From Microbacteriaceae bacterium (GTDB lineage: Bacteria > Actinomycetota > Actinomycetes > Actinomycetales > Microbacteriaceae): DNA of 42,161 nt. Each line of letters starts with the position of its first letter. The first letter of the stretch is position 1. The stretch is from positions 1 to 42,161 of the forward strand of contig CANGGK010000005.1 in assembly GCA_947453475.1 (NCBI GenBank). The letters are read 5' to 3'. The notes under the pieces were generated by a model. The model had not been told where the DNA came from, made no database searches, and saw nothing but the letters and a program-made list of their open reading frames with translations. Below are positions 2,123 through 31,142 of this stretch, piece after piece. A program made the position numbers and the translations under genes.

Positions 2123-4087
2123 TTACCAAATCTTGACGCGAAGGTCTGGGGCGAGCCAAAGCTTGTCACCAGGCTTTACATCGAAGGCCTCATAGAAGGC
2201 ATCGACGTTGCGAACAATCTGGTTGCAGCGGAACTCGGGTGGTGAGTGTGGGTCGGTAGCCAAACGCTGAATGACCATCTCATCGCGGCCCTTGGTGCGC
2301 CAAGCCTGTGCCCAGCTCATGAATAGACGCTGGCGGCCGGTTAGGCCGTCGATAACGACATCTTCTTTGTCGCCCAACATCATCTCGTAGGCCTTGAACG
2401 CGATGCCCAAACCGCCTAGGTCACCGATGTTCTCGCCGATGGTGAGTTCGCCGTTGACCTTGTGCTCGTCTGACAACTGCGATGGCGAAAGCTCGTTGTA
2501 CTGGCCGATTAGTGCACCGGTTAGGTTCTCGAAGGCCTCGCGGTCTGCATCAGACCACCATGACTCGAGTTTTCCGTCGCCGTCATACTTGCTGCCCTGG
2601 TCGTCGAAACCGTGGCCGATTTCGTGACCGATGACACCACCGATTGCCCCGAAGTTCACGGCATCATCGGTTGAAAGCGAGAAGAACGGAGGCTGCAAAA
2701 TCGCTGCCGGGAAAACGATTTCGTTGAAGCCAGGGTTGTAATAGGCGTTCACGGTCTGCGGGGTCATGAACCACTCGTCGCGGTCAATCTTGCTGCCGAT
2801 CTTGGCCAGTTCCTTGGCCGCACCCCAAGCCGCAACGCGGCGGACGTTGCCAACCAAGTCATCTCGACGAATCTCGATTGAGCTGTAGTCCTTCCACTTA
2901 ACCGGATAACCGATCTTCGGGGTGAACTTGTCGAGCTTGGTAAGCGCCTTCACCTTGGTCTCTTCGGTCATCCAAGCGAGGTTGTTAATGCTGTCGCGGT
3001 AGGCCTCGATGAGGTAGCTGACCAGTTCATCCATGCGGGTCTTTGCATCAGCCGGAAAGTATTTGTCGACGTAGATCTTGCCGATTGCCTCACCGAGTGA
3101 ACCTTCAACCAATGAAACCGCGCGCTTCCAGCGGGCACGGTTCATCGGCGCGCCGGTTAGCTTGGTGCCATAGAAGTCAAAGCGCTCGTTGACGAAGTCA
3201 TCGCTCAAAAGGCTTGAGGTCGAGCGGATTACCTGCCAGGCCAACCAAAGCTTGATTGCCTCGAGGTGGTCGTTATTCCATAGCTTGGCGAGCCCCTCGA
3301 AGAAGCTCGGCATTGCCACGTTTAGTTCATCCAAGACCTTTGCATCGAACTTGGCTGCGGTGAGCCAGATGTTCCAGTCGAAGGTTGGGGTTAGCGCGTC
3401 CAGGTGGGCGCGAGCGGTGAGGTTATAAGTCTTCTCGGCATCGCGGGTGGCAACGTTATCCCAGTGAATGTTGGCCAGCTCGGTTTCGAAGTGGAAGATC
3501 TTGTTTGCTCCGGCGAGCGCCGCGTCGGCATCCCAGCCAGCAAAGGTGAGCATCTGGGTGATGTGAGGAACATATGCGTCGCGAATTTCGGCGTGCTTTT
3601 CTTCGCGATAGTAAGCCTCGTCGGGTAGGCCCAAACCGCCCTGAGCCAGGTTGACGATGTAGCGGTCTGGGTTGCCCTCGTCGTTGTCTACCCAGATGCC
3701 GAAAAGACCAGATAGGCCTAGGTGCTCATAGGTGCCAAGCAGGTGAGTTGCGTCGTCGATTTGGCAAACCTGCTCAATTAGCTTTAGGTCGGCGGCGATT
3801 GGTGCTGCACCGAGTTCGTTGGCCCGCTCTTCATCCAAGAATGATGCATAGAGGTCGCCAATTTGCTGGCTAACGCCTGGCTCCGGGTTGGCGGCTGCTT
3901 CTTCAAGCACCTCACGCACGGCAGCTTCAGAGTCGTCTGCCAACATCGCGAAGGCGCCATAAATGGCCTTATCTTCAGGGATGTCTACCTCGGCGAACCA
4001 CTTGCCGTTCACGTGCTGGAACAGGTCGTCCTGAGGGCGGATGTTTGGGTTGAGGTCGTTGGCGTCGATGCCTGGCTTCATGCTCAT
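2123..4087 (-). CDS. pepO: M13-family zinc metallopeptidase (neprilysin/PepO type)
   Basis: A 654-aa protein of the usual length for bacterial M13 oligopeptidases. The N-terminus (IRPQDDLFQHVNGKWF) is the conserved M13 opening. The zinc site is VIGHEIGHGFDD at about residue 490 (HExxH), the third ligand Glu lies in GENIGDLGG downstream, and NAYYNP/IVFPAAILQPP substrate-cleft motifs precede it. The C-terminus ends in a Trp, as is common in the family. No signal peptide is visible, so it is likely a cytoplasmic or unconventionally localised peptidase that cleaves short peptides. The start at 4087 is supported by a TAGGAT -10-like hexamer exactly 6 nt upstream; an alternative ATG lies two codons downstream. 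It is divergent from trhO. Confidence 0.93.
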   Translation of the reverse strand: MSMKPGIDANDLNPNIRPQDDLFQHVNGKWFAEVDIPEDKAIYGAFAMLADDSEAAVREVLEEAAANPEPGVSQQIGDLYASFLDEERANELGAAPIAADLKLIEQVCQIDDATHLLGTYEHLGLSGLFGIWVDNDEGNPDRYIVNLAQGGLGLPDEAYYREEKHAEIRDAYVPHITQMLTFAGWDADAALAGANKIFHFETELANIHWDNVATRDAEKTYNLTARAHLDALTPTFDWNIWLTAAKFDAKVLDELNVAMPSFFEGLAKLWNNDHLEAIKLWLAWQVIRSTSSLLSDDFVNERFDFYGTKLTGAPMNRARWKRAVSLVEGSLGEAIGKIYVDKYFPADAKTRMDELVSYLIEAYRDSINNLAWMTEETKVKALTKLDKFTPKIGYPVKWKDYSSIEIRRDDLVGNVRRVAAWGAAKELAKIGSKIDRDEWFMTPQTVNAYYNPGFNEIVFPAAILQPPFFSLSTDDAVNFGAIGGVIGHEIGHGFDDQGSKYDGDGKLESWWSDADREAFENLTGALIGQYNELSPSQLSDEHKVNGELTIGENIGDLGGLGIAFKAYEMMLGDKEDVVIDGLTGRQRLFMSWAQAWRTKGRDEMVIQRLATDPHSPPEFRCNQIVRNVDAFYEAFDVKPGDKLWLAPDLRVKIW

Positions 4088-29664: not shown

Positions 29665-29946
29665 ATGCCTGAATCATCATCACGTAAGAAGCCTGCCAAG
29701 GTTTCAAAGCCTCGCGCGCCAAAGTTGCCGACCGAGAACACCGAAGAACTGCCTAACCCGGTCTGGTTCAAGCCAGTCATGTTTGGCTTCATGATTCTCG
29801 GTCTCGTATGGATCATCACCTACTATGTGTCGAGCGCACAGTTCCCTCTAGGCGCGGGTACCCCGTGGAACCTTGAGAACTGGAACATCCTGATCGGCTT
29901 CGGCATTGCCATGGTCGGCTTCATGATGTCTACCCGCTGGAAGTAA
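29665..29946 (+). CDS. crgA: CrgA: cell division protein
   Basis: A 93-aa protein with a basic N-terminal cytoplasmic tail (SSRKKPAKVSKPRAPK) and two transmembrane helices (VMFGFMILGLVWIITYYVSS and ILIGFGIAMVGFMMS) joined by a short extracytoplasmic loop (FPLGAGTPWNLENWN). The protein ends TRWK, as is typical for CrgA. CrgA interacts with FtsZ, FtsQ, FtsI/PbpA and CwsA and helps place and stabilise the divisome in actinobacteria. Its location beside trpG and the pkn operon is conserved. The start is fixed by the leaderless promoter. Confidence 0.95.
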   Translation: MPESSSRKKPAKVSKPRAPKLPTENTEELPNPVWFKPVMFGFMILGLVWIITYYVSSAQFPLGAGTPWNLENWNILIGFGIAMVGFMMSTRWK

Positions 29947-29960
29947 TCTTCTAAGAATTC

Positions 29961-30004
29961 AAAAACCGCCGGTTCGATGCCTCTGCATCGAGTCGGCGGT
30001 TTTT
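29961..30004 (+). terminator. Intrinsic terminator downstream of crgA
   Basis: A 20-bp stem (AAAAACCGCCGGTTCGATGC / GCATCGAGTCGGCGGTTTTT) with two G-U wobbles and a CTCT loop, followed by a T-run, 15 nt after the crgA stop. The A/T flanks would also let it work on the other strand. Confidence 0.9.
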
Positions 30005-30050
30005 CTTTTGTTTCGTCGCACTTCTTGAACTCGCACACCGAGAATGCGGG

Positions 30051-30118
30051 ACCCACATCCTGGCCTCACACCTTGATACCCACATCCTGGCCTCACACCT
30101 TGATACCCACATCCGGCC
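30051..30118. repeat. 27-bp tandem repeat (two full copies and one partial)
   Basis: The 27-bp unit, beginning ACCCACATCCTGGCC and ending CACACCTTGAT, occurs at 30051-30077 and 30078-30104, with a shortened third copy from 30105. It falls in the 386-bp crgA-rhomboid gap (29947-30332), which contains no convincing gene. The gap holds the crgA terminator, this repeat, an 83-bp inverted repeat, a small hairpin (about 30246-30276) and a 15-bp tandem repeat. Confidence 0.85.
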
Positions 30119-30144
30119 CCGCCCACCTGGGGCATTGCTGCGGC

Positions 30145-30227
30145 AATTGAGTTATTTAGTAATTCGACGGCTGCAAAGCCCTTGTTTTGCGCACCTTTTT
30201 GAAGCGCAATTACTAAATGACTCAATT
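30145..30227. repeat. 83-bp element with 20-bp terminal inverted repeats (MITE- or ncRNA-like)
   Basis: The left arm AATTGAGTTATTTAGTAATT (30145-30164) and the right arm AATTACTAAATGACTCAATT (30208-30227) are inverted repeats matching at 19 of 20 positions. They flank a 43-bp core. The arms are notably AT-rich compared with the surroundings. It could be a miniature mobile element, a structured RNA or a repetitive palindrome. No transposase or target-site duplication was seen. Confidence 0.7.
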
Positions 30228-30290
30228 CCCAAAGTTTCGAGTTTTGTCGCCATGAAGGGTTCAACTTCGTGATGACGATTGTTGCCGCGA

Positions 30291-30335
30291 AGGGCTGCTG
30301 AGCTAAGGGCTGCTGAGCTAAGGGCTGCTGAGCTA
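30291..30335. repeat. 15-bp tandem repeat, three perfect copies, overlapping the rhomboid stop
   Basis: AGGGCTGCTGAGCTA occurs three times back to back. The last copy contains the stop codon of the minus-strand rhomboid gene (30333-30335). Copy-number change would alter only the 3' untranslated region, since each copy retains the in-frame stop context. Confidence 0.9.
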
Positions 30336-31142
30336 AAGCCCAAGCAGGTTTGCGCGGAACACGGTTAGCAATACCAAAAGGATCGCTACCGACACTAGGC
30401 CTAGGCGCTGAGCAGCCTGCTGCGAAAGCTGTCGAGTGTTTGCCAAAATCAGGGCAACGATGCCGCCGGTGACCAAGCCACCGACGTGACCCTGCCAGCT
30501 CACTCCAGATGAGAAGAAGCCGAAGACGAGGTTGATGGCAATCAACCCAAGCATTTGGCTCGAGTTCTGACCAAGGGTTCGCAGAATCACAAAGTATGCG
30601 GCCATCAGACCGAAGATGGCACCCGAAGCGCCAACAACCCAGCTATCCGGGTTAGCCAACCAAAGCACACCGACAGAACCACCGAAAAGTGAGATTAGGT
30701 ATAGCGCTGCAAAGCGTGCGCGGCCAAGCATCGGTTCGAGCACCTGGCCGAAGATGTAAAGCGAATACATGTTCAAAAGAACGTGCAAGACGTTTGAGGG
30801 GTCGTGAACGAAACCAGCCGTGATCATTCGCCAAGGCTGAACCGCGGTAATCTGCGGCACGTAAGCGAAGAGGTCGGTAACCAGAGACCCCGGCATAATC
30901 TGCAGCAACCAGATGGCCACATTGATGCCGATGAGTGTGAGGGTCACCGCCGGGCGAGGCCCAGATTGGCGAACCCTTGCGGCGCGGGTGCGCCGACGGT
31001 TCAGTTGGGTAACCGTTCCGCCGGCGTCATCCGGGCACAAGAAACCGACACTAGCTTCGATCTGACACTCTGGGCAGATGAAACGTTCACATCGCTGGCA
31101 ACGAACGTATGCCTCGCGATCTGGGTGTCGGTAACAGGTCAT
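30333..31142 (-). CDS. Rhomboid-family intramembrane serine protease with N-terminal zinc-finger-like domain
   Basis: A 269-aa protein. Residues 1-45 contain a B-box-like Cys/His motif (CYRHPDREAYVRCQRCERFI, then CPEC and CPDD), probably zinc-binding. Six or seven hydrophobic segments follow. The catalytic Ser is in the GASGAIFGL motif, and the His lies in WQGHVGGLVTGG in a later helix. Rhomboids cleave membrane proteins within or near the bilayer; the substrate is unknown. The start overlaps the ppiA stop by 1 nt (TAATG), so the two are cotranscribed. The gene ends within the 15-bp tandem repeat. This ppiA-rhomboid-crgA arrangement is common in actinobacteria. Confidence 0.92.
   Translation of the reverse strand: MTCYRHPDREAYVRCQRCERFICPECQIEASVGFLCPDDAGGTVTQLNRRRTRAARVRQSGPRPAVTLTLIGINVAIWLLQIMPGSLVTDLFAYVPQITAVQPWRMITAGFVHDPSNVLHVLLNMYSLYIFGQVLEPMLGRARFAALYLISLFGGSVGVLWLANPDSWVVGASGAIFGLMAAYFVILRTLGQNSSQMLGLIAINLVFGFFSSGVSWQGHVGGLVTGGIVALILANTRQLSQQAAQRLGLVSVAILLVLLTVFRANLLGL

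Follow-up and report, generated by a model that had tools for sequence, protein, structure and literature searches.

The window analysed here is a stretch of 42,161 nucleotides from contig C5 of a Microbacteriaceae bacterium assembly (genome G000). Within it, the gene for the cell-division protein CrgA (crgA, 29665..29946, plus strand; PF06781, E=1.7e-29) and a gene for a rhomboid-family protease (30333..31142, minus strand; PF01694, E=9.2e-30) are convergently arranged, and several features occupy the region where they meet. The first is a terminator hairpin after crgA (29961..30004), which is found in close relatives too. It is followed by a minisatellite with 2.6 copies of a 27-bp unit (30051..30118; 97% match), an inverted repeat spanning 83 bp (30145-30227), and a second minisatellite with 3.1 copies of a 15-bp unit (30290..30336; 100% match). 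The inverted repeat does lie downstream of the crgA terminator, as the initial annotation had it, but it is not immediately adjacent, the two being separated by a gap of 140 bp that holds the first of the tandem arrays. On the minus strand, an unbroken frame of 228 codons (29962-30642) crosses both minisatellites and both arms of the inverted repeat and enters the 3' portion of the rhomboid gene; this frame is unlikely to represent a gene. The crgA-rhomboid spacer of genome G005 (locus L024) holds an apparent DUF1778/GNAT toxin-antitoxin pair, judged by eye, from which it seems that small islets have been gained and lost at this position.

The inverted repeat consists of a left arm (site C5L, 30145..30164, plus strand) with the word AATTGAGTTATTTAGTAATT, a core of 43 bp (30165..30207) and a right arm (site C5R, 30208..30227, minus strand) in which this word recurs inverted with one mismatch, reading AATTGAGTCATTTAGTAATT on the minus strand. 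The sequence and coordinates originally given for this element, with 20-bp arms complementary at 19/20 positions around the 43-bp core, proved to be exact, and the repeat (I1) stretches to 23 nt at 91%. The arms are AT-rich and nearly identical. This inverted repeat ranks first among the 12 found in the window. Based on 19 pairs with up to 2 mismatches in 40 simulated windows, we estimate about 0.02 chance occurrences in 42 kb for an 18-bp arm pair with at most 1 mismatch.

A search of the whole assembly (1,367,749 bases, or 1.37 Mb; 82.8% complete) with AATTGAGTTATTTAGTAATT, allowing up to 3 mismatches, recovered exactly six matches and no seventh arm, against an expectation of 0.04 from base composition; the reversed control pattern had no match in the assembly. 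The six sites form three pairs, all inverted and alike in polarity, with no single sites anywhere in the assembly: the pair of the window (hereafter the C5 pair), one on contig C14 (C14:29297-29520; 224 bp overall, with a core of 184 bp) and one on contig C22 (C22:23879-24076; 198 bp overall, with a core of 158 bp). Were the sites placed at random, three such pairs within 500 bp would arise with a probability of about 6e-9. The 20-mers at C22:23879-23898 (+), C22:24057-24076 (-) and C14:29297-29316 (+) are identical to C5L, and the six copies differ at only three positions altogether. In alignments of the cores and flanks of the three pairs, no similarity above that of shuffled sequences was seen. 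As regards further copies of the element, which the initial annotation had raised, the arms thus recur as two more inverted pairs, but in the genome and the congeneric genomes that were searched, the 83-bp unit is nowhere else present at full length. Across 451 kb sampled from the genome, other inverted repeats of similar size occurred at background rate, and among them there were no arms common to different loci. The word itself is only 10/20 self-complementary.

The C22 pair falls on a gene encoding an XRE-type helix-turn-helix (HTH) protein of 158 residues, which forms an islet between menB and menC. This protein is matched by the Pfam models HTH_3 (37.3 bits against a cut-off of 23; E=2.9e-9) and HTH_31 (29.4 bits against a cut-off of 27); its domain is nearest to MqsA/HipB/Xre-like models, and only these two generic families exceed their cut-offs. 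The left arm of the pair ends 7 bp 5' of the ATG of the HTH gene, and the right arm is inside the HTH ORF and is read in frame as ELLNNSIA. No restriction endonuclease or methyltransferase genes were found beside the HTH gene, which is adjoined by menB and menC in G000, G007, G059 and G017, and it is therefore not a restriction-modification (R-M) controller. Searches of viral contigs and plasmids revealed no relatives of the HTH protein, and the arm word was likewise missing from viral contigs. Matches to the arm word in public genomes came from five unrelated taxa, such as Flavobacterium, and were judged to be due to chance; those at 3 mismatches in six other congeneric genomes were unpaired and lay in ordinary gene sequence. 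We also considered the C5 and C14 pairs as decayed copies of the HTH islet, and rejected this because their cores do not align.

Two members of the same genus, G059 and G017, have a homologue of the HTH gene at the same place between menB and menC, with 41% and 44% identity, respectively, to the G000 protein over the domain. In both, a palindrome is situated 7 bp before the HTH ATG (AGTTACCCAATTCGGTAATT in G059 and AATTACCTAATTAGGTAATT in G017), and a second palindrome lies at the 3' end of the gene, over its stop codon. The dyad symmetry of the upstream site is 20/20 in G017 and 16/20 in G059, against 10/20 in G000. The G000 word agrees with the G017 palindrome in 14/20 positions, a score attained in 0.1% of shuffles. 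Part of the N-terminal region of the HTH protein has been lost from G017 by deletion, with the HTH frame left open, which makes it uncertain what start codon is used there. At the HTH/menC junction of two loci (L054/L055) we noted by eye that the right palindrome spans the stop codons of two convergent genes, with the HTH protein (...RNYLIR*) and the opposite-strand menC product (...DYLIR*) ending on the same bases. Among the closest relatives of G000, G007 has an HTH gene reduced by deletion to its last 30 residues between menB and menC (L056), and it has no site of the G000 type. In the other genomes examined, menB is followed by menC (or a menC-like gene), with neither the islet nor the sites. 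The stretch carrying the C14 pair (about 370 bp) is missing in G005 and G007, and that carrying the C5 pair (about 330 bp) is missing in G007 and G063, with short spacers instead in each case.

A scan across the genus with ATTACCNNNTNNGGTAAT, at no more than 1 mismatch, yielded six clear sites in G059 that form three pairs, on the HTH gene (375 bp), on a gene for an MFS transporter (279 bp) and on a gene for an MBG/Ig-like protein (486 bp). In G017 it yielded four clear sites that form two pairs, on the HTH gene (286 bp) and on the MFS gene (279 bp). A few strays were also returned beyond the paired sites. Exact matches to ATTACCNNNTNNGGTAAT number three each in G059 and G017, with a single one among the remaining 65 genomes of the genus. 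Both sites of the MFS pair (L116 in G059, L117 in G017) have the centre CTCATCAG in G059, and both have CTCTTCAG in G017; the two centres have apparently changed in concert within each species. The corresponding positions in other species are ordinary coding sequence in a gap-free alignment. It should be noted that the words at the MFS and MBG genes can also be read as plausible peptide motifs (ITSSG and ITVSGN), and hence these pairs constitute weaker evidence.

One of the pairs in G000 has an arm on either side of the start of a regulator gene, a place where two relatives have a different word of their own. For this reason we consider it most likely, with a probability somewhat better than even, that the C5 arms are a pair of binding sites for the XRE-type HTH regulator encoded in the menB-menC islet. 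Among the three possibilities offered in the initial annotation, the chromosomal protein-binding palindrome is thus the best supported, by virtue of the recurring pairs, the location of one of them on an HTH gene and the mirroring of this layout in relatives. Also in its favor, the intact regulator and the site pairs occur together, the arms are kept almost exactly amid unrelated cores and flanks, and the 7-bp spacing is conserved in two relatives despite their differing site sequences. In such a system, the HTH protein would bind the site just upstream of the ATG of its gene and probably repress that gene, and the bound site would pair with a second one 60-490 bp away, with the intervening DNA looped. 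The C5 and C14 pairs would then be extra site pairs between convergent genes, where a bridged pair would, instead of being a promoter operator, most likely form a local roadblock or anchor a loop. Several observations count against the operator reading. The G000 20-mer is a poor palindrome, unlike the G017 site, and a symmetric dimer contact is accordingly not obvious. Six copies with three base changes are tighter than is usual for operators, and no promoter or target gene is evident at the two pairs between convergent genes. No common helical phase is seen among the pair spacings (63, 178 and 204 bp in G000; 375, 279 and 486 bp in G059; 286 bp in G017), and the G059 and G017 pairs in coding regions could partly reflect coding motifs.

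An unlikely alternative is that the arms are the terminal inverted repeats of tiny non-autonomous elements resembling MITEs, on which a transposase or recombinase would act in trans, the three pairs being insertions with different cargo. This corresponds to the non-autonomous mobile element of the initial annotation, and the nearly identical, AT-rich arms, their recurrence as further pairs with the same inverted polarity in all three, and the absence of the C5 and C14 stretches from close relatives with short spacers are all consistent with it. However, the flanks of all three pairs were free of target-site duplications; the cores of 43, 158 and 184 bp have no similarity to one another above shuffles, and the C22 right arm is in-frame HTH coding sequence. 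These three features disfavor such elements. Furthermore, the inserted stretches run past the arms and take in the minisatellites, the corresponding sites in relatives are full palindromes, and the gap-free alignment at the MFS gene leaves no inserted material between or around the sites of that pair.

We attach an equally low probability to a transcribed hairpin between crgA and the rhomboid gene, such as a bidirectional terminator, an RNA-processing site or a small RNA. The C5 and C14 pairs both lie between convergent genes, and the RNA fold of the C5 element (93 nt) has an energy of -37.1 kcal/mol with z = -7.3; as single-stranded DNA the element would also fold into a long hairpin (z -5.3). 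The structured small RNA proposed in the initial annotation corresponds to this reading. The Rfam covariance models gave only chance matches far below the gathering score, and the other two pairs would need loops of 158 and 184 bases with unrelated sequence; such unrelated and much larger loops disfavor an RNA. In addition, crgA already has its own terminator, and the sites of the relatives are self-contained palindromes.

Very improbable, in our view, is that the paired arms are sites at which a site-specific recombinase inverts or deletes the segment between them, for instance as an on/off switch for the HTH gene. An inverted pair does surround the HTH start, and MFS centres that are alike within a species and differ between species would be expected if partner sites recombine. 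Yet no recombinase is seen adjoining any of the loci, and the reading frame around the MFS pair is intact in both species; inverted isomers cannot show in single assemblies. The least credible reading is an incidental palindrome with no function, which would suit the uniqueness of the full 83-bp unit but is contradicted by the genome-wide count, with arms that are not single-copy and recur as three pairs, far above chance, and by the mirroring of the HTH-gene arrangement in relatives.

Returning to the binding-site pairs, the C5 and C14 loci have a common layout in the form of a minisatellite, an arm, a core, an arm and a 15-bp minisatellite. At the C14 pair (L006), the minisatellites lie at 3233-3285 (a 21-bp unit in 2.5 copies, 100% match) and at 3555-3614 (a 15-bp unit in 4 copies). 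The unit lengths, 27 and 15 bp at C5 and 21 and 15 bp at C14, are all multiples of three. In the 451-kb sample, the remaining strong tandem arrays lie only in long reading frames, such as those of repeat proteins, suggesting an association, in this genome, of site pairs with fresh minisatellites between genes. Pairs that are bridged or form hairpins may stall replication and so make repeats grow. More speculatively, and with only a slim probability, the HTH protein and its site pairs could be a one-gene system that evolves and spreads together, including into convergent spacers and genes; its partner sites would stay alike, its word would change with the protein in each species, and bridged pairs would stall polymerases or forks, growing the flanking minisatellites.

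Among known systems, an operator over the start of the own gene is typical of antitoxin-type XRE autoregulators (MqsA/HipB/Xre-like). The HTH domain of the protein described here is nearest to their models, though below the cut-offs of those families, and no toxin gene adjoins it. REP and BIME arrays resemble the present sites as short inverted units in the spacers after genes; in contrast to these, only three pairs exist here, no RAYT-type gene is seen at the loci, and the arms do not individually form hairpins. MITEs and related palindromic repeats (RUP, Correia, ERIC and the Rickettsia RPE; PMC2229807) are likewise short and AT-rich with long inverted repeats, and an RPE-like site in a reading frame has a counterpart here. 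Most bacterial MITEs typically have TA ends and target duplications (reviewed in PMC2229807), whereas the three pairs described here have neither and share only the 20-bp arms. The controller (C) proteins of R-M systems, such as C.Csp231I (PMC4321490), are comparable in being small XRE-type HTH proteins with two sites of roughly 15-20 bp near their own start codon; theirs are dyad sites, a symmetry that is complete in the G017 upstream site and 10/20 in the G000 word. They differ from the present case in that the neighbours here are menB and menC, with no restriction or methylation genes, in that 60-490 bp, as against 18 bp in C-boxes, separate the sites, which are found within the gene or to either side of it, and in that extra site pairs are present elsewhere in the genome. 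Dimers of C.Csp231I on its two operators have been proposed to meet by DNA bending or looping (PMC4321490). If our interpretation is true, an orphan regulator with paired sites only, some of them between convergent genes where there is no promoter to control, would provide, in a small streamlined genome, a compact natural case in which a small HTH protein bridges distant sites. It would also be an example of rapid co-evolution of a regulator and its sites, for which three species with different site versions, together with relatives that have no such gene, would form a comparative set for following how site and protein change together.
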